From contig CM037588.1 of the NCBI GenBank assembly GCA_021018995.1, positions 138,877,725 to 138,941,724 of the forward strand: a DNA stretch of 64,000 nt. The letters run 5' to 3'. The notes beneath the pieces were generated by a model. The model saw nothing but the letters and a program-made list of their open reading frames with translations. It was not told the origin of the DNA and searched no databases. This stretch comes from Chloranthus sessilifolius (Eukaryota > Streptophyta > Magnoliopsida > Chloranthales > Chloranthaceae). Each line of letters starts with the position of its first letter. The first letter of the stretch is position 1. Below are positions 15,800 to 49,773 of this stretch, one piece after another. The position numbers and the translations under genes are program-made.

Positions 15800-16053
15800 A
15801 CATCGAGTGCACCCACTATGGCTCCATCTGCTTCTAAAGAGCAACCAATTACTTTAAGAAGATCCTCTAGAGAGCGAAGATCTGTCATACCATCTGATTA
15901 TGAAGTCTATTTACAAGAGAATGACGATGTTGATCTAGATTTTAATGACCCTCCAACCTTCCGCGAAGCTATGGAGAGCAACAAATCTCAATATTGGTTG
16001 GGGGCCATGAGAGAGGAGTTGCAATCCACGGAGAAGAACCATGTTTGGGAACT
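15800..16053 (+). pseudogene. copia reverse transcriptase, N-terminal part (interrupted)
   Basis: Residues RRSSRERRSVIPSDY and FREAMESNKSQYWLGAMREE match the linker and start of copia RT. The reading ends at VWEL where the Tat element begins. The rest of RT resumes at 38888. The 5-bp sequence GAACT occurs at 16049-16053 and again at 38888-38892, marking the insertion site. Confidence 0.92.
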
Positions 16054-16777
16054 GTGCAACCGTAGGATTTGTGACGATCCCGTCGTGGCAATGCGCTCTC
16101 TTGTAAAAAATATAGAGTCACCACCCCGAGCTTTTGGTGTCCCGGGATACCTATATCATTTTTATGAGCACCGAAGTGTTAAAAACTATGACTCTGAATT
16201 CGGTCCACAGCAAAGGTTCTTGGGTAGGGGCTTCAGCTATCGATTTGGAAGGTGTTAGGCATACAATCAACCCGCTTAATGTGGTCTCTACTAATGGTCA
16301 AAATAAAAATAAAGTAAAAGAAAAGAAAATGGCTTCCTCTTGCCCAAAAGGGCTTAGAATCCTATTTGTGCCCCTCCGTTCCTACCAAAAATTCGGCGGC
16401 GTAAGGGCACAAATGGGAGGATGAGAAGAGCCAAAAAGAGATAGGAGAAGAAAGGGGAGAGCCGGAGCCCTCGGGCCCTTGTAGCACCGTAGGAGAGCCT
16501 TGTGTGGCTTGCTTTGATGAGCTCTTGAAGGCTTTGTATGGTATGGAATGGGGTTCTAACTCCTTAAGCTTGAAGCTAAGAGGTAGAGAACGAAGGCTAG
16601 GGGATCACACACACCTAACCTAGAGGCGTTTCATGAAAGACAAGGGTGGGGAAGAGGTTTTTGAATTCCGATTTTTGTATGGGAAGTGTGCACTAAAGGG
16701 AGAAAGATCTTCTTACTTTAAGTTCTTTCTCTCTTAGGTAAAAATTCTCAACCCCTAAACCAAGGGGTGGGAGTCTC

Positions 16778-16785
16778 TATTTATA
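16778..16785 (-). promoter_or_regulatory. TATA box, Tat 3' LTR
   Basis: Minus-strand TATAAATA, conserved in the other LTR at 37886-37893. It lies downstream of the palindrome array in the direction of Tat transcription. Confidence 0.7.
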
Positions 16786-17070
16786 GGAAATAGGTGGATT
16801 AGGAGATCACTTAAGAGCTAAATGGGTTTAGCAATTAGGTAATCTCAAATCTAAGATTTTTTAGGGTTTTTGGAGCCTGAAATGTGTGAGAAAGTCCTCC
16901 AATGGTGGATGATGGGGTGAGGCTTTAAGCCACTTGAAGGGTTGCAAATAGGTAGGGAATGGGTGCAACAGAACTAGCAAAACACACCCTAAAGGTCAAG
17001 GTGGTCAACAAGTCAAACCTCAATCACGATTTTTGGGGCAAAATCAAGAGGTTACTGTTTATATGTTTAG

Positions 17071-17319
17071 TGCAACTAATAGTTGCGTTAGGCAAATGTA
17101 TAGTAAAACAATGTTAAAACAGTGTCTGGAAGTTAGCTCACGGGGGTGGGGTCCACAATTTATACTGGCGCAACTATTAGTTGCGCCAGACTTAAATCCT
17201 GGGAGAAGTGGTCTGGCGCAACTAATAGTTGTGCCAGGCAAAATTTTCACTAGCGTAACTATTAGTCGCGCCAGGACATTTCTGGGGAGAAATATCCTAG
17301 CGCAACTATTAGTTGCGCC
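17071..17319. repeat. 21-bp palindrome array, Tat 3' LTR (5 copies)
   Basis: Copies at 17071-17087 (shortened), 17167-17187, 17215-17235, 17252-17272 and 17299-17319. The unit has arms GGCGCAACTA and TAGTTGCGCC around one A or T. Arms are usually extended by CT..AG. Spacing is about 20-50 bp of unrelated sequence. Confidence 0.95.
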
Positions 17320-17379
17320 AAATCCCTAGGGGGGCCCACTTGATTTTACTCTTATGCCCTCCGGGCTCGATTTGTCATA

Positions 17380-17450
17380 TCTTTTGATATATACCTCCGA
17401 TTGGGGCAATTCTTGGACTGTTGGAAAGATGACGACCTCTACTTTTCAAT
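17380..17450 (+). promoter_or_regulatory. shared LTR core motif, Tat 3' LTR
   Basis: CTCCGATTGGGGCAATTCTT, then TGTTGGAAAGATGACGACC and CTCTAC. This is the same motif as in Tekay-like LTRs A, B and D, but here it is antisense to the element's own transcription. A copy occurs in the 5' LTR at about 38536-38586. Function unknown. Confidence 0.75.
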
Positions 17451-17745
17451 GTTATGAGATTCGATCATAGTAGAGGGCTATAGCTAGTTTCGGTGCACCC
17501 CTCCTCAACCATTTGCTTGATAAGGTTAGGTTTAGGTTCAGAACGGGTTATAAGGGTCGGGATTGATTTCTAATGGTTCGAGTCAGGTTCTTAAGAGATC
17601 TAGGGTGATTCGTAAGGGTTTGGAAAGGTTCCTAAGGATTTTAGGGGGGTTCTTAAAGGTTCCATACATGTCATCAAAAGCTCAGAATTGCACCTCTCTC
17701 GAAAGGTGTTTCAATCAGGCCTTGGGCTAAATTTGGGTGTCTATA

Positions 17746-17766
17746 GATGCCCCTCTTTGATATTTG
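17746..17766 (-). other. polypurine tract of Tat element
   Basis: Minus strand CAAAGAGGGGCATC directly before TATAGACACCC, the typical Tat tract that primes plus-strand synthesis. Confidence 0.8.
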
Positions 17767-19420
17767 ATCACTAATGATCGAATGCCAAAGAAAAAGAGAC
17801 ATCCAAAGAGGCCCAAGGCATTACTGACAGGTCCGCTGCATTCAGAATGAACTTCAAACATTAAATGAGTAACACGGTGAGAAAATAAAAGCCCTGGGAT
17901 GCCAGGCTAAACATTGGTTTCTTGAGGTAATCGATTCCCAAGCGCTTAGTGATATTACTGGGCATAACTACGGTGGAATGAGTTGCGAGCTCCCTATAGT
18001 CGGGAAAGATATTCGCTTCTCGGGATGATTTTGAAGGTATTTGATGTTTAAAATTTATTCTGAATGCAACAACTTCGTGAGTAAAAGGGGGGGATCGACT
18101 CACATTCAAAGATAGGCATGAAGTAAGCATACGCAAGGCTCCATAGTTTGCGTTCAATCCTACGAGGCATTTGATAGCCCCATCTGACTGTTTGCCGGTG
18201 CCCCTGGTGAAAGTGGGGTTCGAGATCTTTGGGCGAACCCATCGACCCCAAAGTTTATTTAGCATGATTGCTTGAGCGAAGTGAATAGATGTCACAACGC
18301 TTTTTAGGAGTGCGTGCCATTTTCGAAAGCATGCCTTAGATTAACATGGCCTAGAGCAGCCAACTTTGATTACCTTGAACAGATCCAACCAAATATTGGG
18401 GTATCTCCATGAAGGGACATCTAATCCTGGTCTTTGCTAATAATGATCATAAACTTCAATTAACTATGCATAATCATGCACCCATCAGGGGCAATAAGCA
18501 ACAATAAAGGCGATAGAAGCCCCGACTCGGACCCGCCCGGGTATAATTTACGGGGGCAAACGACCATCATATTGATACATAGACGCATGACGTACACTTT
18601 ACAGGGATACCGCTGCCCATACAGGTTTTAAGCCTACATAAAATAAAAAGGGAAATGAACCCTTCTGAATGCATGGTTGCACATAGTTTGATTGACACGT
18701 AATCTCATTCTCAACAGGTTGGTCTCAACCAACAATTGACCTTTTTCAATGGAGAATCTGAAGCTTAAGACACTTAAGTTCACATGAATCTAAAATAGAA
18801 CGCTTGTCGCAAATATTTAGCCGTGGAGCCAACTCGATCGAAATATTGACTGTTTGACCGGGACCGATACTGTTGCTCCTTCCTTAAAGTAGGATCCAAA
18901 AATCCGAGGCGAATCTCCGACTTAGGACTTATGCTTGTGCGTCGTTCTGTGGGAAAACACTTGCAGATAAACTATTAACATTTTATCACCTTATGCTTGT
19001 GCGTCGTTCTGTGGGAAAACACAAATCTATTTTTGATTTTTCCATCATTTTATGTGATTTTTTTAATTTTTCAACTGTTATTTTATGTGATTTTTTTTGG
19101 AGTTTTGAAGTTATTATTTTATGTGATTTTTTAGAATTTTAAACCTATTATTTTATGTGGATTTTTCTTGTGAATACTTTCGACTTCTCTGTGGGAATTT
19201 GTTTTTAGATTTTTCTTTATATTTTTCTGTGTAGGACCGGGGTGCTCATTGATCTTGATCTACTTTTATTCTAGCACGACTCTCTTGGCAAGTCGAAGGA
19301 TGGTTGAAATGCCGCCTTGGGAGTGCGTGCATCTATCGAGAGCGACAGAATAAACAAAAAGAGTGGGGGGACCGGTCTTCCCATCTGGTCCGTACCAGGC
19401 CCAAGACCTAGCCTAAGTGC
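17767..19420. other. Tat spacer between 3' LTR and antisense genes
   Basis: About 1.65 kb without a recognised domain. The minus-strand open frame at 17861-18295 has no family match that I recognise. A 33-bp direct repeat (CTTATGCTTGTGCGTCGTTC and on) occurs at about 18927 and 18989. A TTTTATGTGATTTTTT unit recurs about four times in 19048-19165. Confidence 0.5.
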
Positions 19421-19422
19421 CT

Positions 19423-19491
19423 GGTGCAACTATTAGTTACGTCAGGCCACTAGGGGCCTCAAAATAGCCTGGATCAACTAATAGTTGCGCC
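19423..19491. repeat. two 21-bp palindromes upstream of antisense gene 1
   Basis: Copies at 19423-19443 and 19471-19491, slightly degenerate. They lie about 180 bp before the first putative splice donor (19675) of antisense gene 1, so in its promoter or leader. Confidence 0.9.
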
Positions 19492-19493
19492 AG

Positions 19494-19852
19494 GCTTGGC
19501 TAGGGGAAATCTAAACAGCCCGAGTTTGGGCTGGGGGCTTTATTTCGAATTTTTCTCCCCCTCCTTCCTCTTTGAAATCGAAAATTGCCTCAACGCGTGT
19601 CCCATTGCCGTTGCTTTGCTTGTGCGGATCGATCGTTGGCTCACGCTAGATCAAGACCCCTTTTCTCTCTAAAGGTAACCATTAAAACCCATTTTCTTTG
19701 ATTTTTCTTGCTTTTTCTTGTAGATTTGATCATGATCTTGTATTCTTTGATGAGTAATGATTTATTTATATAGTGTGTATGTTTATTGATGAAGTGTGGA
19801 TGATTCTTCATGAACAATGCCCTATTTTGTTATTTCATGGATTGATTGGTGC

Positions 19853-19926
<74 letters not shown>

Positions 19927-22900
19927 TTTTGTATATGGAAAGGGATTTTTTGGTTCATATTTTTTGCAAAAAAAAATTTTGTTTTAGTTTTTATTAAAAT
20001 AAAGCAAAGGATTTTTTTGTTTTATTTTTTCGGTTGATTTTTTTTATTTTTGTAAGTAAAGGATTTCTTTTTCGTTTTTGTTTTTATATTTGCAAAGTAA
20101 AGTGAGGAGAATTTTTTGTTTTTGATTTTTACTTTTTATTTTGACAAACAAATTAAAGGATTATTATTTTAATTTCTTTTTTTTTTACTTTTGTGAATAA
20201 GGTAAAGGAAAGAAATTTTTTTGTTTTTTGCTTTTTTGTTTTTAGGAACACGAAGAAATGACTGCTTATTTTTTCTTTGGGACCAAAGGAGAAGAGAAAG
20301 ATTTTTTTGTTTAGAAGCGTGATGATGATTTCTTTCTCTCCTTTTTTTTTGCTTTTGTTTTCCTAGACATAAAGGGAGGATTTTTTTTGTTTCTCTAGGT
20401 GTAAAAAAAGGGTCCTTTTTATTATTTTTTTAGAAACATAAAAGAATGATTTTATTTGATTCTAACTTGCTTTATTTTCAAAGATAGGAAGGGGAAATTT
20501 TTTTTTTTGTCATTTTCTGAAGGAAAGATTTTTTTTGCATTTTCAACCTAAAAGGGATCTATTTTTTTTGTTTAGGCATGTGTATATCTCATTTCTGAAA
20601 ATACGTGAAAAGAAAGGGGAAGGGTGAGCATGCTTACCTCCCTTTTGCAGCATAGAATATCATGGCTCTTTATCATTGATCTACTCTGACGTGATTACTT
20701 TTTGTTGCCCCAGAATGTCGGGTAAGGAGGGGCCCGAGATTGTATACGGCTCACGGGGGGAGCAGTTCATCTAGGTAGATCGGAGAGCGGGCCCGTGGCT
20801 CGAGATGTAAGGCGAGGCCGCCCGAGTCGGCCTCCTTCACTAACAGCATACCCACATTTCAAATTTCGGGATAGCGGGCAAGGTAAAAGAGAAGTTCACT
20901 TCATTTCCATTATGCAGTTTTTGCTTTGCCCCTATGATCTGATGCGCATTTTCTTAGGTGCAGGACCTGCCCAACATTGTATTCTGTGGCGGGTTGCTCG
21001 ACTTCCAAGATTTCTACCTCTACGTCCCTCCCGTAGTAAAGGTTCTTCTGGCACAGGTGGGCTTCAGAGAATTTCTATCTTGCCCCTCCATGAGGGCCAA
21101 CGCTGCCTATCTGAAAGCCCTGATTGAACAGTTTCACCCCGAGATGATGACCTTTCACATGTTGTATGCAGAGATGACTTTGACGCCCGTCAATTGGGCC
21201 ATGATTACTGACATCAAGATAGGGGGGATTCTGATATTTGATCTCCCGATGCTGAGTCGAGAGGACATCATTCGATTGATTGGGGTCTATCCTCCTAACG
21301 GGCAGACACATGGAACCGAGGTCAAGATGTCTTGGCTGACCTCACTTTATACCCCTGATGAGTTAGTGGATCTAGGTCAGCCGAACAGGGTGTTGTACAT
21401 CACACCGGAGCGGGCGATCATCCTAGCCTGCATCACTCTCCTGGTCCTGCTTGGTAAGATGCTTTTTACCAACGTGAGTGGTGGCCGAGTCAGCCTAGCC
21501 TTGCTGAGTGTGATGGACAACTGGGGTGACGTCCATAGGTATGACTGCGGAGGGGCAGGGTATGTATGGCTGATGTACAACTTGGCTCGAGTCACGACCG
21601 GGGATTCAAAGTTTATTGTTGGTTTTTGGGCCGCCCTGGAGGTAATTCCTCATTCCTTTGCCATTGCCATTTTCTTTGAATGACTTTATATGCTACAGAC
21701 CTGCTCTTATGTACTGCCCCTTTTTAGGTATGGGGATATCACCACTTTCACCTTGGGCGCCCACTTCTTCACTCGGAGGAGATCACCTATCCTTTACTCA
21801 GCAATTGAAATCAGGCCCGGCGCCGTGACGCAGGCCTAAAGCACTTGGAGATGGGTCTGAGGTCCCAACTCGACCTGATGGTTCCTGAGCAGGTAAAATT
21901 CTTTTTCAACTTTGTTTGTTCCAGCTCGGAAATCTCCTTTTATTGATGTGCTAACTGCTTGGCCCCCCTCTTTTTTTTAGCTTGGACAGATCCTCCTTGA
22001 CCCATACCTTACATCCCCCTTCTGGGACCGAGCAGCTGTAGGCCCCTCTCGCCTTTTTAACAGTCGCCACATCATTTTCTTCTATAGAGCATGGGCTGAG
22101 GTTTATTATTTGGGAGAGCGAGTGGTGCACCAATTCCAGTGTTACTATGCCATACCTATGAACCCTCCGGCAGATGTTTGGTATCCTGTTGGCAGTATCA
22201 AGGAGCTTACGACGGCCTTCTTCAATAACAGGCTCCCCATCTAGGCTCTCCATGTGCCTGGGGACTATCATCTTTGGTATGAGTGCCTGCCATACCGGTT
22301 TATCTTGCCGCGCTTTGTACCTAGCACCAATTTTCTTGCATTCGATGGCCCACTCAGGCAGGTAATTCTTCTTAGCTTGGATTAGTTCCCTTTATGCTTT
22401 AATTCAGCCTTTGTCCCTTCTAAGCGGATCTTTATTTTGTTCACAGTTTGTTCCAGGGGATGATTTACAATGTGAAGGCGGGACGAGTGTAGCTGATATG
22501 TCAGGGGAAGATCCCTCCGGTGCTGGCCCTTCTGGTGTGGGTCCCTCGGGCAAGGGCTCTTCGAGTGCTGGTCTGTCAGGTTCCTCTTTATAGGACCTTC
22601 CAGTGCCTGGATGACAGCTTCCTTTCGGGCCTCTGCACAGATGTGGATCGACAAGCGCGGCTTTTTGCTAAGGTGGCCCGTGTCCCTCCTCCTGAGGTGG
22701 TTCCAGGGGTAAGTCTGCTAACGGCCCAATCTCTTTCCGTTTCAGCCTCCTATTGCACATGCTTTAAGATTGCCCTGATAACTAATGTTATGTCGTTCTA
22801 AACGTAGGACTTCAACTCGGCCATGGAATATGCAGAGTATCATCGTCATCTTGCAGAGCTTAGAGAAGTGGAGACTGTGAGTACCTTGCCGCTCTACTCC

Positions 22901-23100
22901 TCTCATTCATTTTATTATCATTTGTCCCTTAACTGATCCTAACTCTTGACTTTGATTGTGCCTTGCAGCGTGCCCGTGCTAAGGAGTCGCGTTCTTTGCT
23001 CAGTAGGATCTCACAGGTGTAGTCCAGGGTGGGGGACATTCGGACCTTCCAGAGCTCCTCTCGCCGTCGCAAGAAATCAAAGGGCGCGAGCAAGGAATAG
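19494..23100 (+). pseudogene. antisense gene 1 of Tat element: intron-containing plant mobile domain (PMD)-like protein
   Basis: Runs opposite to gag-pol. A series of GT-AG junctions fits a spliced gene: leader intron 19675-20713, ATG at 20715, then introns 20883-20963, 21642-21727, 21893-21980, 22362-22445, 22709-22807 and 22877-22968, the later ones 81-99 bp. Most exons stay in one phase. Exon 20964-21641 holds the PMD core (GFREFLSC, EQFHPEMMTFHM, EMTLTPVNWAMI). Exon 21981-22361 has the downstream PMD block (YYLGERVVHQF, DYHLWYECLP). The last exons are charged and helical and end in a basic, NLS-like RRRKKSKG. In-frame stops at 20772, 21806, 22242, 22591 and 23020 make it a pseudogene. PMD proteins occur in plant genes and transposons; biochemical role not known to me. 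The exon model is mine and needs transcript support. Confidence 0.75.
19857..19932. repeat. (AT)n microsatellite and poly(T) in leader intron
   Basis: A long TA-repeat followed by a T-run, inside the first putative intron (19675-20713) of antisense gene 1. The whole intron is T-rich on the plus strand, as plant introns are. Confidence 0.9.
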
Positions 23101-23466
23101 GCTTTTAGTTTTTATTTTGAAAACTCAGTACTCTTTGGAATTTGATTTGGATTTGTTTAATCATTTTGGGGATGGTTGATGTGATACTTTGGATCATTAT
23201 TTTTGAAAAATATTTTTAGCATTTCTGCTTTGATTTTATGCCATGATCTCTTTGCATCGGACCTGTTTCTCTGCAGGATGTGTTTGCTCAAAATGTTCTC
23301 AAAAAGCGACTCCTTGGGCATATGCTTTGATGTAGGATTAGTCCTGCATATGAATAAACAAAATAATTGCCAAATTGTTAGTGAAAGGAGGTGTGTGAAA
23401 AAACAAAAGGGGTGTAAGTCCCCATAGTTGGGTCTCGGGTTGGCTGAAGAGGGGGGACTGTAGTGT

Positions 23467-23606
23467 GGCGCAACTATTAGTTGTGCCAGGTTGAAATCCT
23501 AGAAAATATGTACTAGCGCAACTGGACCAAAATGTGCTTGCGCAACCAATAGTTGCGTCAGGCTCAACCTGATGGAGAAAACACTGGCACAACTAATAGT
23601 TGCGCC
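23467..23606. repeat. 21-bp palindromes upstream of antisense gene 2 (3 copies plus a half-site)
   Basis: Copies at 23467-23487, 23539-23559 and 23586-23606, with a half-site near 23514-23522. They end 29 bp before a TATATA box and about 170 bp before the ATG of antisense gene 2, a promoter position. Confidence 0.92.
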
Positions 23607-23634
23607 CTGTTTAAACTGGGGAGCAGTGGGTCCT

Positions 23635-23640
23635 TATATA
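23635..23640 (+). promoter_or_regulatory. TATA box candidate of antisense gene 2
   Basis: CCTTATATACCC lies between the palindromes and the ATG at 23776, leaving a leader of roughly 100 bp. It is a plausible independent promoter for the plus-strand gene. Confidence 0.5.
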
Positions 23641-23775
23641 CCCGAGTTAGTCCAAAAATCACTTCTTCTTTGTTTGACTTGGCCCTTTTGACCGGTTCTT
23701 TTTGTTCTTGCTTTTCCAAGGCGGGTCCATCACCATACATCGATTTTTGTCTTCACAAAAGATCTTCGTACATTC

Positions 23776-25275
23776 ATGGACCCGCTTTCTAACCCTCCCT
23801 TACGTGGAGGGCCTGGAGCCAATTTACCTCCTTCCTTAGGCCTGTGGTCTAAATTTCTAACAGTCTTGTTTGGGAGCTTGAATGAGGATGAGCTCGCCGA
23901 CTTGGAGCGCCTTAGGCTATCTCGCCATCCTTCCTTTCTAGAGGTTCCTCCACGGTGGGAACTCCTTTACGCTGCCGCTTCATCTTGGGATGTGAATTTC
24001 CATGTATTCCATTTTGGGAAGCGAGAGCTAACCCCAACCCTCGAGGAGCTATCCAATCTGTCTGGCCTAAAGCTTCACAGGGGTCTTGTAAGAGTCACGC
24101 CTCGGTCGGGCTATTCCAAATCCATCCACCTTACTCTCGGTTTGAAGAAACTTGAGTATGAGAAAAGTCTCATCGAGGGGCCCACAAGGTGTTCGCTAAA
24201 ATTCCTCAAAGAACTTTTCAGTGACGAAAGTCTCCGAAAATTGCTGGTTAGGAACATTTTCAATGTGAAAGCTCTAGCACTCAGTCTCATCTCTGAAATC
24301 CTCTTTTTTATCGGGGGGGAGAGCTTCTCCTTGGCAATTTGCGACATTTTGACTAAGCTGGAGGCGGGCCGATCCATGATGCATTTGGTGCTCGTGGAGC
24401 TGTATCGAGGCCTTGATTCATTTACTTTGGGCAAGGTGGAGAGCCTTTAGGGGTGCCCCTTGTTGCTTCAGGTCTGGTTGGGTGAGCACCTCGCTATCTT
24501 GGGGCCTGTGCCCCACTTTTATATTGCTCGAGGTGAGGTGGCTCAGTGCTTTCTGGGTAGGTGCCATTTTCTTCCACAGGGCGAAGTGTCATCTCTGAAA
24601 CTTTGGTTGACCGATGCCGAACTGACATGGAGGCTTCCTTGGTTGGACCGGACCTTCCCAGTAGTTCGCTCTAGAGACCATGAGGGCATCACCCTCCTAG
24701 GATTGATTGGCAGTACCTTCTACTTCCCATTCTGGGTATTACGCCAATTTGGTTGTCCTCAGCAGGTGCCTTGAGAGACCAAACCCCCTCTATGTGATTT
24801 GATCTTTTCTAGGGGGTCCTCTGGAGACATAGCTCGGATTGTTGCTCTTTGGGAGACGCGTCAGCCGACATTGATGTGTGATTTTGAGCAGAGAGATTTG
24901 GTTAGAACTTCTTTTGAGTACGAGGTCTGGCTATTGACTGAGCGGCCTGCTGCTGATGGCCCAGATTCATCAGAGATCATTGACACTAGAGGCCCCTGGC
25001 CAAAGAAAGAGACGACACTCCGAGCCCACATCGAGTTACTGGTGGATGAGAAGAGGGTCCTGCAAGAACTTTTGGCACATAAAAAGGTTAGAGCAGAAAT
25101 AGTAGAAAGCGAGGTCCTCTGTTTGAAGGGATCACTTAGCGTTGCTTTTGGAGCCGCCGACTCTTCTCAGAAGAGGTATAAGAGCCCGCATGGTCGCTGG
25201 CTGACTGAGCGGAATGTCCGGGAAGATGACCTTCATGCTGAGATTAGCGCATTGAAGTGCGAGCTGGGCCGCTAA
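23776..25275 (+). pseudogene. antisense gene 2 of Tat element: PMD/DUF7745-like protein with coiled-coil tail
   Basis: Plus strand, opposite to pol. The frame from ATG 23776 runs to a TAG at 24448-24450 and continues in the same frame to 24777. Residues such as FGKRELTPTLEELSNLSGL, LKLWLTDAELTWRLPWLD and FPFWVLRQFGCPQQVP match the DUF7745/PMD-like family as I know it. A second frame, 24799-25275, holds a charged, coiled-coil-like tail (ELLVDEKRVLQELLAHKK, then ISALKCELGR). The two parts may be joined by an intron or separated by a frameshift near 24766-24812; a 47-bp GT-AG stretch there is short for a plant intron and the phase does not fit. Palindromes and a TATA box precede it. One nonsense codon and this break suggest a recent pseudogene. 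Confidence 0.75.
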
Positions 25276-26640: not shown

Positions 26641-27770
26641 ATCACAATAGACTAAGAGTAGAACCGTCAGACGTATCCAGCGTTGATGAGCTCAGGAAGA
26701 TGATCTCCAACCATGGTGGCGAGGCGGATGGCATATCCCAGTAGCACTTCTCGAACGACTTAAGGCCCCTCCCAGATCGGCTTAAACTTTCCTCTTGGAT
26801 CAGCGTGGAGGGATGGAAAGATCTTCTTCAGCACAGCGTCTCCTACCTTTAAATCTTGACCGTGAACACGCTTGTTGTAAGCGCGTGCGATTCCCTCCTG
26901 GTACACCTGAGTGTGACACAAGGCTAAGAGTCTCTTCTTATCTAATAAGTTCAATTGTTCGAAGCGAGATCTCTCTCTTTCTGCTTCAGGTAAGCCTGAT
27001 TCCATAAGGATTCGGAGCAAGGGTACTTCAACCTCAACTGGTAGGACGGCCTCAGTTCCATACACAAGGGAGAATGGTATTGCCCTTGTAGCGGTACGAA
27101 TTGACGTTTTGTAGGCCTACAAAGCAAATGGCAACATCTCACTTCAATCTCGGTAGGTGATGACCATTTTCTCAAGGATGCGGATGACCGTTTTATTCGC
27201 GACTTGCATGGCTCCATTAGTTTGAGGTCGATAAGGTGATGAGCGATGGTGCTTGATCTTGTATTACTCGCAGAAGGCTCAGATGCGCTTATTCACAAAA
27301 TTTATGTCGTTGTCTGTGATGATATCTTTGGGTACTCCAAATCGGCACACAATATTACTCTTGAGGAACTTCTCGACGTGACTGGCCGTGATGTTGGCAT
27401 ATGACATCGCTTCTACCCACTTGATGAAGTATTCAATGGCGATGAGGATGAATCGATGTTTGTTCGATGCTTTTGGATTAATCATTCCGACGACATCAAG
27501 GCCCCAAGTAGTAAATGGCCAAGGAATGGTCATGCAGTGTAGATCGATAGCCGGAGCGTGTATCAGACTGGAGTGTTCCTGACACTTATAGCATTTCTGA
27601 ACGTGTTTGTAGCAAACTGATTCCATAGTGGTCCAAAAGTATCCTTATCGCAGAATTTTCTTAGCAAGCATGTGACCGCTGACGTGGGCTCCACATACTC
27701 CTTCGTGGATCTCCTTCATGATGTTGGTTGCTTCACTTTCAGTAAGGCACCTTAGTAAAACATTATTGTA
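26640..27770 (-). pseudogene. Tat integrase remnant
   Basis: Minus strand, C-terminal part of pol. It begins with the zinc-binding segment (EIHEGVCGAHVSGHMLAKK, CYKCQEHS). The core follows: WGLDVVGMINP holds the first aspartate, DIITDNDINFVN the second, and the region NGAMQVANKTVIRI the position of the glutamate, which appears changed. Further on, YGTEAVLPVEVEVP and VLKKIFPSLHADPRGKFKPIWEGP are typical of Tat/Ogre integrase ends. Stops at about 27640, 27275, 27125 and 26760 break the frame. It joins the cDNA to the host chromosome. Confidence 0.9.
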
Positions 27771-28009
27771 GGATCGCTTGTAAAGGCACTCCCCATAAAT
27801 GACGTAGCCTGCTGCTAAACGTTGAATGGTTCGCCGATCCGTCCTGGACGTACCCTCAGGGAAAGTTAGTGTTTCAAGGAAGTTCATGATATCTGAGAAC
27901 CAAGGTGGCTCATCATTAGGCTTTGTAGGTTCATCAATCTGGAGGCAAAAGGTTGGCTCATTCCTCTGCTCGATCATGATTGGCTTCATCTCAACACCAT
28001 ACGGGATTT

Positions 28010-28400
28010 CTATCATTGATGCCAACATTGCTAGTGCATCGACAAAGCGATTCCTTATTCGTGAGACATAGGAGAATGTCACATCTTCAAAACAAGCTAT
28101 CAGATCCTCAAGGTGATCATGATAGGAGATCAGCTTCTCATCTTTTGTCTTCCAGTCACCATTCGACTGGCATATAATCAATTACGAATCGCCAAATACT
28201 CGAAGGTGAGTTACATTCAGATCGAGAGCCGCCTACAGACCAGCGGTACAAGCTTCGTACTCAGCCATGTTGTTTGTGCAAGGGAAATTGAGCTTAATAG
28301 AGACCGGTACATGGGATCCTTTAGGCGAAATCAGAATGGCGTCAACTCCCTGACCTTCGGCATTTGCAGCCCCATCAAAGTGCATTACCCATGATTCCTC
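28010..28400 (-). pseudogene. second (archaeal-type) RNase H of Tat element
   Basis: Residues WVMHFDGAANAEGQGVDAIL, NNMAEYEACTAGL and VDALAMLASM carry the D-E-D-D pattern of an RNase H fold, separate from the RNase H attached to RT. An extra domain of this type between RNase H and integrase is characteristic of Tat elements. A stop after CTAGL (near 28232) and another shortly after break it. Confidence 0.9.
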
Positions 28401-28489
28401 TGCTTCCTCAGTATCGTCTTCCGTCATAAATAAGATGTCCTCATCAGGGAACTCAGTTCTTAAAGGTTCATAATCATGCAAAGGATTAT

Positions 28490-30038
28490 CGACAAGATGA
28501 TCAGCAAGTGTCCGCCCCTTAATCGACTTCTGAGTGACATACACGATGTCAAACTTAGACAATAATAACTGCCATCGTGCAGTCTGCCCAATGAGAGCTG
28601 GCTTCTCGAAAAGGAATTTCAGTGGGTCCATTCGGGCCAAAAGTAGAATGGCCTGGGATAGCAAGTAATGGTGGAGCCTCTGAGTAGCCCATACAAAGGC
28701 CAGGCATGCTTTCTCCATATGAGAATAGTGCGTCTCATAATCAGTAAATTTCTTGCTCAAATAGTAGATGGCCTACTCTCTTCTTCCCATCTCGTCATGC
28801 TGACCTAAGACGCACCCCATTGAGACCTCCGTCGTGGAGAGATACATCAAGAGTGGTCTCCCTGGCTCAGGTGGTACCAACACAGGTGAGTTAAGGAGGC
28901 AACTTTTGATTTTATCGAATACTGCCTGACAATCATCATTCCATTCAACGGGTGAGTTCTTCCTTAGTAGCTTAAAGATCAGCGTGCAGATGGGCGTTAG
29001 CTGTGCAATGAGCCGACTGATATATTGTATTCTGCCCAAGAACCCTCTAACTTCCTTCTCAGTAGACGGTGGTGGCATTTCAGCGATAGCTTTGACTTTG
29101 ACTGGGTCGACCTCGATCCCTCTCCGACTGACAATGAATACTAACAATTTTTCAGACAGCACCAAAGCACACTTCTATGAACTCAGACGTAACCTATACT
29201 TTCTCAGCCTCTCAAACAGCTTATGAAGGTTTACCAAGTGATCGCTTCGCTCCGGTGACTTGGCTATCATATCATCGATGTATACTTCAATTTCTCGGTG
29301 CATCATGTCGTGAAACAGCACAGTCATAGCTCTTTGGTATGTTGCACCGGCATTTTTCAGTCCAAATGGCATGACTCGGTAGCAAAAGGTTCCCCAAGGA
29401 GTAATGAATGCAGTCTTCTCCCGATCAGCTTTTGTCATCTTTATCTGGTTGTATCCTGAGAATCCATCCATAAATGAAAGCATCCTGTGCTTAGCAGTGT
29501 CATAGACCAAGATGTCGATGTGTGGTAGTGAAAAATCATCCTTCGGGTTTGCCTTGTTCAAATTTTAAAAATTGATACACATGCGGACCTTTCCGTCCTT
29601 CTTCGGCACAGGCATAATATTGGCTAGCCACTGTGGTTATTTAGATACCATGAGAAACCCCGCATCATACAGCTTGATGACTTCATCTTTGACTTTCAAT
29701 ATCCACTCGGGTCGGAGACGTCTCAGTTTCTGCTTAACCGGCTTCATATCGGGGTAGAGAGGCAACTCATGCTCAACCAAATCGGTGTCCAGACCAGGCA
29801 TGTCCTCGTACGACCAGGCAAAAATGTCTTGGTATGACCGAAGGAAGTCGATCATGCTTTTCCTTTCTTCAGGAGAGAACAACATTCTGATTTTGGTTAT
29901 TCTGGGAATCTCCTCAATCCCAAAATTGACGTCTTCAGTTTCTTCGACAACGGGGGTAGGGCCATGCTCAAAGTTGGCAAACTGATCAAGGAGCTCATTG
30001 GGGAGCTCCTCCAAAGGACTATCCTCATCCAGACTCAT
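28490..30038 (-). pseudogene. Tat reverse transcriptase-RNase H remnant
   Basis: Minus strand. The N-terminal block at 30038-29637 (LEELPNELLDQF, IFAWSYEDMPGLD) leads into RT. The fingers and palm follow: NLNKANPKDDFSLPHID, MSFMDGFSGYNQIKM-like, and the catalytic VYIDDM near 29275. The connection GIEVDPVKVKAIAEMPPP and the RNase H segment with MEKACLAFVWATQRL follow to about 28490. Stops at about 29635, 29562, 29172 and 28770 disable it. The RT copies the RNA into DNA in the particle; RNase H removes the RNA. Confidence 0.93.
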
Positions 30039-30297
30039 AACTCCTACCTCTTCTTGTATTTCTACAAGAAAGTGGGCGATTTTATGTGGGAAGGGTATTT
30101 TGATTAAGGCATCATTTTGCGGGACCTTTTTTAGAGTTCTAAATGACGATATTTTTGGACTTTGGATTTTTTCAATGTTTTTAGGATTTTATATTTTTCC
30201 ATGTTTTTGAGATTTTTATTTTCTTCGGAGAAGGACCCTTGGCAAGGCGGGTAACTATATATACAATGTATTGCCTGCCAAGGGCTTATCTTACTTT

Positions 30298-31760: not shown

Positions 31761-32571
31761 CTTCCCCTCTGGTTGGGCCTGTCTTTATTCTTTGGTGCAC
31801 AGCGGCTTCGATATCCTCGGGCCGTGTGACAAAGTCCACTGCCCCTTCTCTGCTGCTGCTATCGGTATTGACATCTGTTTGCTCGTAGCTTAGCAGGACC
31901 TGATGAGGGTCATAGGTTGGTCCCGAGAGCTGGAAAGGTATAACAACCGGTACTTGAGGCACTTGCACTGCCGGCTCAGGAGGTGTGGGCAACACCTGAT
32001 TTATTTTAGTGGTAACAGGTTGGGTGAAAATTTGGGCCAGATAGGGGTGGTGAAGCTTGAGGGTGGTGGCATTGGAGGGAAGGAGGTAAAAGTAGGCCAT
32101 TGATAGCTGGTGGGTGCTGGCAGGAGATGGGTGGTCTGATGGGTAGTTAGGTAATTGATCGGGGTGGTGGAGTTCGCAGGTGAAACTTGGGGTGATGGGA
32201 TGGGCGCAGGCCATTGATAACTGACGGGTGCGGGTGTGGGATTGGGGGCTTGATGGTTTATTGGGTAATTGATGGGGGCGGTGGAGTTTGCCTGTAGTTA
32301 AACTGGGGGAAATGGGGTGGGTGAGGACATTGATAACTGGAGGGTGCGGGCGTAGGATTGGGGGCCTGTTAGCTCATCGGGTAATTGCTGGAGGTGGTGG
32401 TGTATGGTTGGTATGCATTGATATGTACACAATTGACGGGTGTGGTGGATGGAAAGTATGCCCTGAGATCTAAAGGTTCAATTTGTGAGGTCAGGTTAGA
32501 GAAATATTATGACAAATTTAGGGGTTCAATTATCCCTATATTCCTCTCTTCCATGTTTCTTGACAATGGTG
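31761..32571 (-). other. degraded gag-protease linker with G-rich repeats
   Basis: No intact domain. The minus-strand frame 32214-31579 is proline-, histidine- and threonine-rich. On the plus strand the text is a repeated GGGTGTGGGATTGGGGGC..TTGATGG pattern at about 32080-32450, a duplicated block of roughly 120 bp in two to three copies. This repeats part of a low-complexity gag C-terminus. Confidence 0.6.
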
Positions 32572-33760
32572 CTATATAACTCTCCCGATCACTAATATAA
32601 TCGGATGGGTCAAATTAAACTCCTCCTCATCTTCTATCATTCTGATTGTGGGTCTGGGACCTGCTCCTCCGGTAGGATGTGGGGGTAGTGGAACTTGGTG
32701 AATATTAACATGCTGAGAAGTTACAGGGGGAATGATTTTTTTGGTGTCGATCAAATCCTGGATTGCATGCTTCAATGGGAAGCAGCGATCAGTTGGGTGA
32801 CCCGGACCCTGATGAAAATTGTAGTGAGTATTTGGGTTGTAGTTCTTTAGGATTGGATGGGGAGGAGGTTGCGATTGACGAATAGTGACTAATCCTTTTT
32901 CCACTAACAAAGGGAGAAGTACACTCAACGATTGCCCTAGGGGTGTGAAAACTCAGTCGTAGTGGGCTCTCCTCTGCTCCGAAGTCATTTGCATTCCTTG
33001 CCCATTCCCTATTCTCTGCATCTGCTCAGGCCTAGCTGGTGCTAGTGGGGTAGCCTGAAATTGAAATGGGGTTGTATTGTTATTGGGCCTGGTATTGGCA
33101 ATGTTCTGGACATTGCTCCCTATTCTCTTATCGTTCCTTTGCTCTGAAAATCTCCTAACCCCACTGGGTCCACTTGGCATGTTCTTACTCAGACGACCCT
33201 CCCTGATGGCATCCTCACATCGGTTAGCATTTCTCACTAGATCAGCAAAGCTGGACTGCTACTAGTACACCAAAAAGTCTGAAACCACTGGCAGAGTATT
33301 CTTCAAGATCATCTCAATCAGCTCATCATCAGGTATTCTATTTCTGACATGAGCTGCCAGGGCTCTCCAGCGTCCCAAGTAGTCATTGAAGGTCTCGTTC
33401 TGATTCTGTTTCAAGCGGGCCAAGTCTGACTTTCGCGGCTCAATATCTATATTATAGACATATTATTCTTGAAAGAGGTGTGTCAAGTCCCTCCATATTT
33501 TTATCATGTATGGTTCTAAAGATGTGAACCATCTTAAAGTCGGACCGATCAGACTCTTCTGAAAGACTTTTATTAGTAGTCTTTTGTCTCCTCCGTATTG
33601 GCACATGTCCCCACAGTAGGACTTCAAGTGTGTGATTGGATTGACAGTGCCATTATATTTGTCGAAGGCAGGCATTGCAGGGGGACCTCGACAAACAGAC
33701 ACAAATCCGTGAAATCGATGGCATGGATTTTAGCACCACCCATCTTTAACAATTGTTTTT
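32572..33760 (-). pseudogene. Tat gag core with zinc-finger-like end
   Basis: Minus strand. The retrotransposon gag domain starts at PPAMPAFDKYNGTVNP (about 33685) and continues through HLKSYCGDMCQYGG, SLIGPTLRWFTSLEP and WRDLTHLFQE. After a stop near 33462 it continues in the same general frame to 33240. The segment 33237-32953 is hydrophilic. The segment 32928-32572 holds HYNFHQGPGHPTDRCFPLKH, the Tat-type finger in which the first cysteine is replaced by asparagine. Gag forms the particle and packages RNA. Confidence 0.88.
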
Positions 33761-33794
33761 AGATCTTGTCTAGTTGCTCCCTTAACTATTCCGA

Positions 33795-35786
33795 TTATTT
33801 GGACATGGGGGCCATTTTTTCAATAGCTGGCCGAGACTCGCTCTGTGCTATTGGGGGTGAGATTGCTACCGGTGGAGGATTAATAGTGGTCACTGCCCCG
33901 ACATAGGCACCAATGTTTCTGATCTCGTCCTCCTCATACTGCTGATCTATGTAGGGTGCAGTGAGGATGGTGTTCTCATACTGTTGTTGCATGGACTGGA
34001 TGGGATTGGATTGGATGTGGGTTGGGTGAGCCCCTTAAATATAAGGGAGGTGTTGGGGGTGATGGGATGAGTAGTGGTTTGGTTTAGGGGTGGGGCCTGA
34101 TGGGGCCATTGGATATGGGAGAAGGTTTGGATATTGTCTTGGGGTATGGGGCCATGAGAAAATTGGGTCTGAGGTATGGCATGGGTTTGACCTGGTTGTG
34201 AAGGTTGGGGTGTGGGTGAAATTTTGGGGTATTGTGGAGGGTAAGAGGTGGGGGCTTAGGCGATGGGCCCGGGGTAGGTTTGGGCCACAAGGCCTTGATC
34301 AGGTTGGGTTTCGGTAAAGGGCATGGGATTTGGGGGACCTTGGCCTATTAGGCCTTGATGGGTATGGCCCATTGGGCTTTGGAGGGCTTGGGCCATGGGC
34401 CATTGGTGGGTATGGGCCTGGGCCAGATGGGTCTAGGCTGTAGGCCCTTGGGGTATGTGGGCCTGGCCCACTAGGTTTTGAGGGGTATGGGCCATTGGTG
34501 GGTATGGGCCATGGGCCCTTGGAGGGTTTGGGCTTTGGCTAAATGGGTTTAGGCCATGGGCCCTAGATGGGTTTGGGACATGGGCCCTTGGGTAAGGGTT
34601 TGGGCAATGGGCCCTTGGGGTTTGTGGGCCTGGACTAGTGGGCTTTGAGGGGTATGGGCCATGGGCCATTGGTAGGTTTGGGCCATGGGTCTTTGATGGT
34701 TTTGGGCCATGGGCCCTTGAAGATTTTGGACCATGGGCCCTTGATGGGTTTGGGCCATGGGCCCTTGGGTATGGGTGATGGGGTGTTGGGCCATTAGGCC
34801 TTAGAGATCATGGGTGGTGGGGTGGTGGGCCAATGGGCCTTGGGGCATGTGGGAGATGGGGATTTGGATGGTGTGAATTATGGGGGGTTGATGGGGATCA
34901 TGGGAGAGTGAAGCATGGAGATTGGCTAGGGTATGGGATGGGTCCATGGATATGGGGTGTGGAGGAGAGGGGGTGTTTTGAGAAGCCTTCCACATGGAGT
35001 AGGCTTGGACCTCCATCATGGTCATGGAAGGAGGATTGGATGTGGGTGGTGGAGAGGGGAAATTGGGCGTGGCCCTGGTGTGATTGAGCATGGCCATGAT
35101 AAGAGGTGGGATATGGGGTGGATTGGAGAGTTGAGGTGGGGTAAAGGATGGGGAGGGATTAGGGATGTTTAGGGATGGTGGTTGGTGGGGTGTGGATGTT
35201 TGGAAGAAACCAGGCATGGCCCCGGTAAAAATGGGCATGACCCTGGTAGATGGGGGGATTTGTGGGGGGTCGGATAGGGTGGAGGTGACATAGGTAAAGG
35301 ATGGTGGATTGGGTCTATATGGGGAAGATGGAAAATGGGGCATGGGTGCGGATGTGGAAATTTGGGTTGGGTTCATCATGGATGGGGGTGGGAAATGTGT
35401 TGGGTTTTGAGGGGATGTGGATGGAATGGGTGGTTGGTTTGGCATGGATATGGGGGGACAAGTGGCTTGAGAAAAAGATGGGGGAATGAGGGGGTTGATT
35501 TTGGATGTTTTGGGAAGTGATGGTTGGGAAAATGGGGGCTCCAAATAGGTTGGTAACGGTAAAAGGGGATAGGGTGATGGGGATGGATGTGAAGGCTTCT
35601 TCCGAATGGGAGTGGGTTGGAGAATGTGGCGGGATGAGTCGGGATCGACATAAGTCGGGTCCACAATCCATGACATTCTACGAGAACGGGTTGGGTATGG
35701 GTGCCTTGGATAAGGCCCAAAAATTTTCCTCCTTCTTCCCCTACGGGAGGATGGAGGGCAAGATGATGTCGTTGTGCCGGCACCAC
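33795..35786 (-). pseudogene. proline-rich N-terminal gag extension with QGPMAQ-type repeats
   Basis: Minus strand, upstream of the gag core. Frames 35786-35376 and 35676-34801 encode an unusually proline-, histidine- and serine-rich sequence. The frame 34794-34549 and its neighbour 34669-34433 encode a tandem repeat built on QGPMAQ-T/N-H/Q, visible in the DNA as GGGCCATGGGCCCTTG units over 34270-34830. I do not recognise a domain. Two or more frameshifts break it. The plus strand is strongly G-rich here, and its long open frames are shadows. Confidence 0.7.
34270..34830. repeat. GGGCCATGGGCCCTTGG tandem repeat field
   Basis: About fifteen degenerate units of 20-40 bp, each with the palindromic core GGGCCATGGGCCC or GGGCCATTGGGCC. 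It lies inside the proline-rich gag extension and encodes its short peptide repeat on the minus strand. Confidence 0.85.
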
Positions 35787-36156
35787 AAAGGTTCTATTTT
35801 TTTAGGTTTTTTTATTTTTTATTTTATTTGAAATTATTTTTTAAAATAAAGGTTCTGAGGCCTTGGAATTCCTTTCTTGGGTGGCTTTCGCACCTTAATT
35901 CAAGAACCACGACAACAATTCCGACGCACTTCTGAAGAATCGAAGGAGAACCTTCGGTCTATTGACGGCAAAAAATCGAGGCAAACAACCCGATCTCTCG
36001 GAATGAGCCAAAAAAAAGTTGCCCTCTTTTGACCAATGGGGGCGTATTGGGTGTCAGAAATGGTGAGGCCTAAACAAGGCACTAAGCACACTGATCGGGG
36101 GACTCAGGAGGTGAAGAAGGCCACAGATTCGGGCTGGTGTGCTGTTAAACAGACTT

Positions 36157-36319
36157 GGCGCAACTAATACATGCGCCCAGGTTGCAGGGCACCTTTTTAA
36201 CACTGGCGCAACTATTAGTTGCGCCAAGGTAAAAATTTGGATTTTAAAGCTGGCACAACTATTAGTTGCGCCAGTTATAAATTCTAGTTTTTTGCACTGG
36301 TGCAACTAATACTTGCGCC
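36157..36319. repeat. 21-bp palindromes in Tat leader upstream of gag (4 copies)
   Basis: Copies at 36157-36177, 36205-36225, 36252-36272 and 36299-36319, at a regular spacing of 47-48 bp. They lie about 370-530 bp upstream of the first gag-extension frame. Confidence 0.95.
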
Positions 36320-36814
36320 AGGCAAAAACTGATGCTCCAGAACTGATGACAGCAGGCACCAACACTCGAAATGAGTCACTTTTTTTGGTTTTTGTGGAAG
36401 CTAGGCTTCCGAGAACTAAGCTATTTTTTGGTGATCGATTCTCTCCTTACCGCACCTAACAGGTTTGAGTCCGGTATAACTCGCTAGCGCGCTCCCCTAG
36501 GGTTTTAAGCTTCGGAATGGGAACCCACCCGATATACCTCCGGCGTAAGTGCCTTCTCAGATACTAGGTGGGCTAGGACTTTTCTGGATCATCACTAGGG
36601 GCTGCCGCCATACTAAGACCCGGGTGGTTGTGTGTTTGCCGAATCCCAACCCTTTTAAAATCTATCCCGTAAAAAAAAATTAATTAAGCTCCCTAACTCG
36701 GTTCAATTTTAATTTTTTTTCAAAGCTTTTCTCTTTGTTTTAAAAGTTTTCTTTAGTTCAAAGACCGGGGGTGATGACCCCGTGCCATACGGGCCAACGT
36801 CCACTGTTGGGATA

Positions 36815-37010
36815 TGAGTGCACAAGTAGGCCCGCCAATCGGCTAAGGCACTTTAAATGACAGGAAAGTAAGGAAATTAAAAGACAATGCCCAAGTAGGC
36901 CCGCCTATCGGCTAAGGCACTTAAAATGATGGAAAAGTAAAGAAATTTAAAAGACAACGTGCATGTAGGCCTACCAATCGGCTAAGGCTCGTAAATGACG
37001 GAAAAGTAGC
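36815..37010. repeat. 66-bp tandem repeat, three copies, Tat leader
   Basis: Three consecutive copies of a unit beginning with AAGTAGGCCCGCC(A/T)ATCGGC, running into TAAGGCAC and then AAATGA..GGAAAAGTA; the last copy is shortened. Confidence 0.9.
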
Positions 37011-37140
37011 GGTGAGTAAAATAACTTAATCGGAGTGGTGAGTAAAAAAATAGCAAAAATAAAATTAAAAAAACAGCAATAAAATGTTAGAAAAATATAA
37101 ATAAAGAGGCCTAGGTCATGGGGAAGCTCTACTAGCTACT

Positions 37141-37157
37141 TCCCAGCAGAGTCGCCA
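37141..37157 (-). other. Tat primer-binding site
   Basis: Minus strand TGGCGACTCTGCTGGGA, four bases from the LTR end. This sequence is used by Tat/Ogre elements and matches the 3' end of a tRNA-Arg type. Confidence 0.85.
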
Positions 37158-37885
37158 TCTTTGTAACTGTGGGATTTGTGACGATCCCGTCGCGGTGATG
37201 CGCTCGCTTGCAAAAAATATAGAGTCACCACCTGGAGCTTTTTGTGTCCCGGGATACCTATATCATTTTTATGAGTATCGAAGTGCTAAAAAAGATGACT
37301 CTGAATTCGGTCCACACCAAAGGTTCTTGGGTAGGGGCTTCGATTATCGATTGGAAAGGTGTTAGGCGCCCAATCAACCCCCTTAACATGGTCTTTACTA
37401 ATGGCTAAAAACAAAAATAAAGTAAAAGAAAAGAAAATGGCTTCCTCTTGGCCAAAAGGGCTTAGAATCCTATTTGTGCCCCTTCGTTCCTACCAAAAAT
37501 TCAGCGGCGTAACCACACAAATGAGAGGATGAGAAGAGCCAAAAAGAGATAGGAGAAGAAAGGGGAGAGATGGAGCCCTCGGGCCCTTACAGCACCGTAG
37601 GAGAGCCTTGCGTGGCTTGCTTTGATGAGCTCTTGAAGACTTTGTATGGTATGGAATGGGGTTCTAACTCCTAAGGCTTGAAGCGAAGATGTAGAGAAGG
37701 AAGGCTAGGGGATCACACACACATAACCTAGAGGCTTTTCATGAAAGGCAAGGGTGGGGAAGAGGTTTTTAAATTCTGATTTTTGTATGGGAAGTGTGCA
37801 CCAAAGGGAGAAAGATCTTCTCACTTTAAGCTCTTTCTCTCTTAGGTAAAAATTCTCAACCCCTAAACCAAGGGATGGGGGTCTC

Positions 37886-37893
37886 TATTTATA
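37886..37893 (-). promoter_or_regulatory. TATA box, Tat 5' LTR
   Basis: Minus-strand TATAAATA, about 290-570 bp downstream of the palindrome array in the direction of transcription. It is the likely promoter for gag-pol RNA. Confidence 0.75.
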
Positions 37894-38177
37894 GGAAATG
37901 GGTGGATTAGGAGATCACTTACGAGCTAAATGAGTTTAGCAATTAGGTAATCTCAAATCTAAGGTTTTCTAGGGTTTTTGGAGCTTTGAAATGTGTGAGA
38001 AAGTCCTCCAATGGTGGATGATGGGGTGAGGCTTTAAGCCACTTAAAAGGTTACAAATAGGTAGGGAATAGGTGCAACAGAACTAGCAAAACATACCCCA
38101 AAGGTCAAGGTGGTCAATAAGTCAAACCCCAATCACGATTTTCAGGGTAAAATCCAGAGATTACTATTCATATGCCT

Positions 38178-38461
38178 GGCGCAACTAATAGTTGCGTCAG
38201 GCAAATATACAGTAAAACTATTAGTTACGCCAGGCAAATGTATAGTAAAATAGTATTAACATAGTGCATGAATGTTAACTCGCGAGGGTGGGGTTCATAA
38301 TTAATACTGGCGCAACTATTAGTTGCGCCAGGCTTAAATCCTGGGAGAAGTGGCCTGGCGCAACTAATAGTTGCACCAGGCAAAATTATCACTAGCGTAA
38401 GTATTAGTTGCACCAGGCCATTTCTAGGGAGAAATAGTTTGGCGCAACTATTAGTTGAGCC
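38178..38461. repeat. 21-bp palindrome array, Tat 5' LTR (6 copies)
   Basis: Copies at 38178-38198, about 38215-38233 (left arm decayed), 38309-38329, 38357-38377, 38394-38414 and 38441-38461, in U3 of the Tat LTR. Confidence 0.95.
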
Positions 38462-38887
38462 AAATCCCTAAGGGGGCCCACTTGATTTTACTCTTATGCC
38501 CTCCGGGCTCGGTTTGTCGTATCTTTTGATATATACCTCCGATTGGGGCGATTCTTAGACCGTTGGAAAGCTGACGACCTCTACTTTTTAATAGTATGAG
38601 ATTCGATTATAGTAGAGGGCCGTAGCTAGTTTCGGTGCACCCCTCCTCAACCATTTGCTTGATAAGGTTAGGTTTAGGTTCAGAACGGGTTCTAAGGGTC
38701 AGGATTGATTTCTAAAGGTTTGGGTCAGGTTCCTAAGGGATCTAGGGTAATTCCTAAGGATTTGGAAAGGTTCCTATGAGTCTAGGCAGGTTCCTAAAGG
38801 TTTCATACATGTTATCAAAAGCTCAGAATTGCACCTCTCTCGAAAGGTGTTTTGATCGGGCCTTGGGCCAAATTTGGGTGTCTACAA

Positions 38888-45757: not shown

Positions 45758-45955
45758 TGTAATGTCCCTGAGTTTTGACCTATGAATTGCATGCCTAACG
45801 AACCGTACGTCGAGGTCTGTACCGATAAACTATGTAATGTCTATATATCAAATCCGACGGATCGGATTTCGTATAGATAGGTTAGGTTATGAGCTATTGA
45901 ACCGCGTAGACCCAACCTTGGTGTAACCGCTTTGTACCATAGCCTAGGGCTTGGT

Positions 45956-45962
45956 TATAAAT
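45956..45962 (+). promoter_or_regulatory. TATA box, Tekay-like 5' LTR
   Basis: TATAAAT about 200 bp into the LTR. The 3' LTR copy reads TGTAAAT at the matching place (near 54606). The palindromes lie 400-900 bp downstream, so in the transcribed leader. Confidence 0.6.
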
Positions 45963-48226: not shown

Positions 48227-48238
48227 TGGTATCAGAGC
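48227..48238 (+). other. Tekay-like primer-binding site
   Basis: TGGTATCAGAGC, the initiator-tRNA-Met complement, two bases after the LTR end. Confidence 0.92.
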
Positions 48239-48349
48239 AACGGCTTTAGAGACGTCTGACAAGTCTTAGACCATTTAGAGATTTGAGATTTTATTGAATA
48301 CTAGGGACCATCTGTTAATAAGACCGTTGTTTCATTGTAACAGATTCTA

Positions 48350-49671: not shown

Positions 49672-49773
49672 ATTCAATTACTTATTTTTCTAGACGAAGA
49701 AAGCGCATTGATAGGAAAAGATTTAGGTGCATCTGGGTAATTGTGTAGAAATGACATGCATGTATGAAAATTA

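Follow-up and report, generated by a model that had tools for sequence, protein, structure and literature searches.

A palindrome shared by the LTRs and the antisense PMD gene promoters of a Tat/Ogre-type retrotransposon is a predicted site of common control

In a 64,000-nucleotide stretch of Chloranthus sessilifolius DNA (hereafter the window), a Tat/Ogre-type retrotransposon spans approximately 16053-38886 and carries arrays of a single palindrome, GGCGC arms around the core CAACTA-W-TAGTTG, in both long terminal repeats (LTRs), in the leader before gag, and upstream of two antisense genes that encode plant mobile domain (PMD) proteins. Read on the minus strand, the element runs 5' LTR, leader, gag-pol, two plus-strand genes, 3' LTR. 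We favor, tentatively, the reading that the arrays are predicted sites of one dimeric factor that would couple gag-pol to both PMD genes, a factor that may be supplied by the element itself. New here are a motif of at least 23 bp, the two antisense PMD genes with ratios of nonsynonymous to synonymous substitution (dN/dS) well below 1, and a core that is 99% identical across 19 promoters of the second of these genes.

Palindrome arrays in the element and across the genome

At up to three mismatches the window holds 17 palindromes, and 100 shuffles hold none. At up to five mismatches there are 20, all within the Tat/Ogre-type element and at five places, with none elsewhere in the 64 kb; three first-order Markov copies of the window, searched with as many as seven mismatches allowed, gave matches only at six and seven. 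The palindromes, listed without strand, comprise six in U3 of the 5' LTR (38178-38461; starts 38178, 38211, 38309, 38357, 38394 and 38441), five in U3 of the 3' LTR (17069-17319; starts 17069, 17167, 17215, 17252 and 17299), four in the gag leader (36157-36319; starts 36157, 36205, 36252 and 36299, in steps of 47-48 bp), two upstream of antisense gene 1 (19423-19491; starts 19423 and 19471) and three upstream of antisense gene 2 (23467-23606; starts 23467, 23539 and 23586). A plus-strand TATATA (23635-23640) for gene 2 starts 29 bp beyond the last of these. Homologous arrays occupy the gag leader in other copies. A first-pass annotation of the window had counted about 20 palindromes at these five places, with the same steps in the gag leader and the same distance to the gene-2 TATA, and had found none in coding parts. 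All of this is borne out: no palindrome lies inside the listed gag, pol or PMD reading frames of the window, or in the aligned coding DNA of other copies.

The palindrome had been described as 21 bp long, and here the description needs extending, since the palindrome itself is real but its arms are longer. Across 178 sites from the window and its copies, T occupies position -11 in 94% and A position +11 in 93%, both positions having lain outside the search pattern, and weaker AT-rich positions follow at 15-18 on both sides. The motif base is kept in both arms in 97-98% of cases at pairs 1, 2, 4 and 5 from the center and in 92% at pair 3 (220 sites, 110 distinct), figures that are biased upward because sites were selected by resemblance. 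Transitions make up 211 of the 310 arm changes in these 220 sites, and 107 of those transitions fall at the two CpGs.

We searched a single genome of 2.17 Gb in 32 contigs, in which the window lies on contig C5. It contains 46,922 matches at up to two mismatches, and none to a reversed control. The matches listed (100 rows representing 70 distinct places, on contig C1 only) were the source of 32 stretches totaling 216.8 kb, chosen for holding a palindrome and covering 46 of the 70 places; the stretches fall into 18 groups separated by over 25 kb, so the independent elements number fewer than 32. All 130 sites found in them at up to five mismatches fall in the LTR (72, of which 71 are aligned and one sits in a gap between two LTR alignments), the gag leader (21), the gene-1 promoter (18) or the gene-2 promoter (19). 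None lies in aligned gag-pol (19.6 kb), gene 1 (7.5 kb) or gene 2 (6.6 kb) of these stretches, in the 12.7 kb that runs from gene 2 to pol and includes the integrase, in other noncoding parts, or in 106.7 kb of unaligned DNA. Within this sample the palindrome is thus limited to the Tat/Ogre-type family and keeps the same positions from copy to copy, and we saw neither the random scatter nor the equally common coding matches that the first-pass annotation had set against its own proposal. The exact palindrome is absent from the prokaryote genomes and viral contigs searched, which served as negative controls only. In the open-access literature we found no earlier report of it in Tat or Ogre elements, and the half-site letters returned no retrotransposon paper by title among the matches listed.

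Conservation at the sites and the two antisense PMD genes

Promoters were also collected by way of the proteins that they precede. For gene 2, 20 copies were taken from the 150 scored among 10,675 candidate places, and every one has sites upstream (ten have three, eight have four, one has two and one has a single site). The distance from the last site to the start of the TATA is 29 bp in 13 of these 20 copies, 28 bp in two, 31 bp in two and 21 bp in one; in the remaining two no TATA was located. For gene 1, where 150 of 10,528 candidates were scored, sites are present in 8 of 10 upstream stretches examined. Of 123 neighboring pairs of sites less than 200 bp apart, 85 are separated by 47 or 48 bp, 11 by 37-38 bp and 9 by 97-99 bp. 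Spacer identity is 0.55-0.70 within one position and 0.31-0.46 between positions (shuffled, 0.26-0.29); spacers are therefore nearly unrelated between positions, and motif and spacing persist where the intervening sequence does not. Duplicated units are visible inside the arrays.

Conservation is clearest at the gene-2 promoter. In a gapped alignment of the window with 18 of the 20 copies (L028 and L039 were left out, their TATA anchor being absent), the 12-base core has an identity of 0.991, the last palindrome 0.895 and the preceding one 0.788, compared with 0.617 for the spacer, 0.788 for the linker, 0.918 for the TATA and 0.813 for the leader. These are the values we rely on; a TATA-anchored comparison that allows no gaps, and is distorted by indels, gives 0.578 for the palindrome, 0.605 for the core, 0.46 for the spacer, 0.643 for the linker and 0.535 for the leader. 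Among 12 copies selected for exact 48-48 spacing, palindromes reach 0.88-0.93 and spacers 0.67-0.68. Identity to the window copy at gene-2 promoters, sites versus the remainder, is 0.81 versus 0.72 among palindrome-picked copies and 0.82 versus 0.78 among protein-picked ones; the corresponding values are 0.85 versus 0.81 in the gag leader and 0.85 versus 0.80 at gene-1 promoters of palindrome-picked copies.

Some copies appear to have dispensed with the PMD genes. Four of the 32 stretches (L006, L012, L018 and L023) pass from near-3'-LTR sequence to sequence at about 25.6 kb or beyond, with no alignment to the segment in which the two PMD genes and their promoters lie. All 14 sites that these four contain are in the LTR, and they average 0.93 mismatches, next to 1.2 for 10 LTR sites in a comparison set of three copies in which gene-1 sequence or promoter is present. 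The retention of LTR sites in PMD-less derivatives fits a factor acting in trans, though it is no proof of one.

Both antisense genes lie on the plus strand. Gene 1 extends over 20716-22600, with exon limits and end approximate and drawn by eye, and its longest open part is 20958-21680; gene 2 extends over 23776-25275, its end likewise approximate, and is interrupted in the window copy but encodes about 499 amino acids where it is open in other copies. Against the PMD profile PF10536 (curated cut-off 34.9 bits), the window copies fall under the cut-off at 28.8 bits for gene 1 and 27.6 bits for the interrupted gene 2, while gene 1 in copy L014 scores 60.4 bits and gene 2 in copy L049 scores 58.3 bits. 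Neither gene matches TRP28 (PF04195) or DUF1985 at E up to 1; these are PMD genes and not relatives of the VANC anti-silencing proteins of VANDAL transposons, which the first-pass annotation had named as an analogy. Gene 2 has a dN/dS of 0.26 over 404 pairs from 29 copies, and gene 1 one of 0.145 over 8 pairs from 5 copies, values to be read with the fact that the copies, those of gene 2 above all, were mostly selected by protein similarity, which lowers dN/dS. We considered the two genes as close paralogues and rejected this (23% identity, E 1.2). Gene 2 has no match in the protein database at E up to 0.001 and no solved-structure relative by sequence at E up to 1. PMD-A clades are described as encoded by Gypsy elements only, and an anti-silencing role has been suggested for MULE-captured PMDs (PMC5418596). 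In the tea plant, 175 phased small interfering RNA loci are reported at PMD genes (PMC10673657), a hint that PMD genes attract host silencing there.

Two further features recur by eye 3' of the gene-1 palindromes, in the window (19500-19550) and in L064, L065, L068, L069 and L070: a second short inverted repeat resembling AGCCCGAG..CTCGGGCT, and with it a TTTATTT-like box.

A shared factor and competing explanations

Under the reading that we favor, the 23-bp palindrome, arrayed at 47-48 bp, would be bound by one dimeric, sequence-specific DNA-binding factor, and its presence upstream in the LTR as well as at the individual promoter of each antisense gene would allow gag-pol and the PMD genes to be switched together. 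Such a factor would most likely be provided in trans by the element family, the first candidate being one of the PMD proteins, either by itself or by way of a partner. Control would in that case be autoregulatory, and could be used by deletion derivatives that lack the PMD genes. We infer the protein binding, the dimer and the common control from the sequence; which protein the factor is, and that it would activate or counter silencing instead of repressing, are the least certain parts. The first-pass annotation had likewise spoken of operator-like sites that place three promoters under one trans-acting factor. The symmetric core, fixed spacing, gene-2 TATA distance and lack of hairpin-type compensation lend partial support to that claim, in which binding is a prediction. 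As for three promoters, arrays do lie upstream of gag and of both genes, but a separate gag promoter is no more than a candidate.

Several observations weigh against the favored reading. No TATA is visible by eye at the gag-leader array. LTR sites have an identity to the window copy of 0.75, no higher than the 0.77-0.78 of the remaining LTR, and their 12-bp flanks drop to 0.61; at gene-1 promoters of protein-picked copies the sites reach 0.77 versus 0.84. Site-by-site constraint is shown for gene 2 alone. Of the two gene-1 copies that have no upstream sites, L066 lost them through deletion and L067 does not align to the element at the promoter stretch. The selection of copies behind the dN/dS values belongs here as well, as does the statement in PMC7156037 and PMC9899485 that contact of PMD proteins with DNA is not known. 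We read the low site identity in the LTR and at gene 1 as array turnover combined with CpG decay in the window copy.

The arrays might instead be enhancer repeats for a host transcription factor, in which case the element would have spread host sites and would encode no factor. We consider this a real possibility, if a lesser one than a factor of the element's own. One half of the palindrome, TTAGTTG, resembles what we take to be a MYB type II site. The palindromic repeats of Sireviruses, moreover, are reported to match sites linked to stress in a database of plant motifs (PMC2829016). However, 23 bp is long for a host-factor motif, and all 130 sites sampled belong to the family, although a sample of this size leaves room for a small share in host promoters. 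It is unlikely that the palindromes serve as operators for a repressor encoded by the element, one that would control copy number through the element's own expression. Sites near the gene-2 core promoter are what autorepression would produce, but a family with so many thousands of sites does not suggest tight self-limitation, and by eye the LTR sites seem well upstream of the probable start.

Symmetry of this kind could also reside in nucleic acid structure, with RNA or extruded-DNA hairpins serving packaging, dimerization or small-RNA production from genomic RNA. The arrays are all within the element and their RNA folds strongly (z -5.7 to -8.5 in three stretches), but folding is trivial for palindromes, and paired, compensatory changes between the arms show no excess (18 observed, 16.2 expected). 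The fixed TATA distance at gene 2, itself a pointer to DNA, together with the placement of the sites, their near-invariant symmetric core and the lack of excess paired changes, fits dimer-bound DNA better than an RNA hairpin, and we hold the hairpin explanation to be quite improbable. Least probable of all is neutral tandem-repeat turnover, in which unequal exchange would have spread the arrays without function. Turnover does occur, as the unit duplications and the poorly conserved LTR flanks attest. Yet neutral exchange would hardly leave a nearly identical core beside divergent gene-2 spacers, the same spacing at four places despite unlike spacers, and 19.6 kb of aligned gag-pol free of sites.

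Element anatomy, a second gypsy family and relation to known systems

The remaining parts of the element, all on the minus strand, place it by class. The 5' LTR (37162-38886) and 3' LTR (16053-17745) are 89% identical, and TG/CA-type ends are seen in the sequence of the latter. A candidate primer binding site, picked by eye, adjoins the 5' LTR at 37141-37157 and may be of the transfer RNA (tRNA)-Arg type. The tRNA that primes Ogre is given as tRNA-Arg (PMC9289625). Within part of pol (26763-30188, outer limits approximate) lie an RNase H (28236-28772), a second, RVT_3-type RNase H-like domain (27648-28181), and an integrase core (rve; 27282-27644) that scores 27 bits, under its cut-off of 32.6. 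This order of RT_RNaseH, RVT_3-type and rve is that of angiosperm Tat elements, in which the second RNase H is placed between RNase H and integrase, and PMD is reported in the extra open reading frames (ORFs) of 57% of Ogre elements (PMC6317226). On the domain order and the PMD genes we call the element Tat/Ogre-type. The presumed gag frame (34801-35793) adjoins the leader and is called gag by position, as it has no Pfam match. Beside it, at 34251-34799, is a G-rich run of repeats of about 24 bp (GGGCCATGGGCC-like), and between the 5' LTR and gag the leader holds a 64-70 bp repeat in three tandem copies (36819-37021).

A second Ty3/gypsy element occupies 45788-56930, with LTRs of 2.4-2.5 kb that are 89% identical and with gag, protease, RNase H and integrase recognized by Pfam. 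It has its own palindrome, approximately AATTTCGATCGATCGAAATT, in arrays at 46347-46857, 52119-52453 and 55007-55554, and also at 57952-58150. The motif CGATCGAA occurs 49 times in the window and 0-2 times in five Markov copies: 33 occurrences are in the two LTRs of the second element, nine lie just before its extra ORF (52777-54020, sense, no Pfam hit), five are at 57952-58143, and single strays are found at 50560 in its pol and at 18835 in the Tat element. For a 20-base form of this palindrome the genome contains 23,011 matches with two mismatches or fewer, against 4 for a control. Palindromes specific to one family, placed in LTRs and ahead of extra genes, may therefore be a general feature here, a point in favor of function for the Tat palindrome that also makes it less singular. 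At 1400-1957 a third, related motif (around TCGATTAATCGA) forms a cluster.

The closest parallel in anatomy is with the RM boxes of Sireviruses, family-specific palindromes that recur many times in the LTR, ahead of the TATA, and cluster before ENV; an internal promoter is suggested for them, with no functional experiment (PMC2829016). Palindromes in the LTR and before an extra gene are common to both systems. Sireviruses, however, are Ty1/copia elements with a CGG-CCG core and a sense env-like gene, whereas the element described here is a Ty3/gypsy Tat with GGCGC arms, the CAACTA-W-TAGTTG core and two antisense PMD genes, and of the two only the Tat element has a gag-leader array and a fixed 47-48 bp spacing. 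The closest parallel in logic is VANC. VANDAL elements have short noncoding motifs near genes, in tandem arrays that gain and lose units and are rare elsewhere, and the logic proposed is that the element encodes a protein whose targets are specific to its family (PMC5735166, PMC10398659). The Tat palindrome is, similarly, a family-specific tandem motif in noncoding parts. VANC, however, carries DUF1985 rather than PMD and recognizes a 9-base, one-orientation, non-palindromic motif, and its binding and demethylation have been demonstrated (PMC5735166, PMC10398659), while for the Tat palindrome binding is a prediction. With the Ty1/copia host, the CGG-CCG core and DUF1985 all lacking, the Tat palindrome is a member of neither system, though it would resemble both in how it works.

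Grande (gene23) and Retand (TRP28) likewise carry a gene in antisense, situated between pol and the 3' LTR, with a nuclear protein and a suspected regulatory role (PMC7264820, PMC11963269), and the Grande gene is reported to have its own promoter (PMC7264820). Retand has a TRP28 domain (PMC11963269), in contrast to the PMD, the two genes, and the palindrome common to genes and LTR described here. The PMD domain is shared with MAIN and MAIL1, on which a gene set with the promoter motif DOWN depends (PMC5418596, PMC7156037, PMC9899485); those are host silencing genes, whereas the PMD genes here are encoded by the element. The DOWN motif at MORC1, CATGCAGTTT, is unlike the Tat palindrome, and we rejected a link between the two (4 window matches at up to one mismatch, 5.4 expected).

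Arabidopsis PMD proteins aid transposon silencing, and the sources leave open both their contact with DNA and counter-silencing by transposon PMDs (PMC5418596, PMC7156037, PMC9899485). A 23-bp motif present in tens of thousands of copies, at LTRs and at both PMD promoters, offers a concrete probe of the PMD-DNA question. We raise as a doubtful idea that Gypsy-encoded PMDs are sequence-specific regulators or anti-silencers with the palindrome as their cognate target, which would make them a retrotransposon counterpart of VANC, convergent in function. If so, the relatives of MAIN and MAIL1 that are encoded by elements would act via promoter arrays, and LTR-retrotransposon families may each hold a palindrome code of their own, a second being seen in the same window. 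Shared palindromes would also give a giant element a simple way to coordinate separate transcription units, one that derivatives without the genes could exploit.

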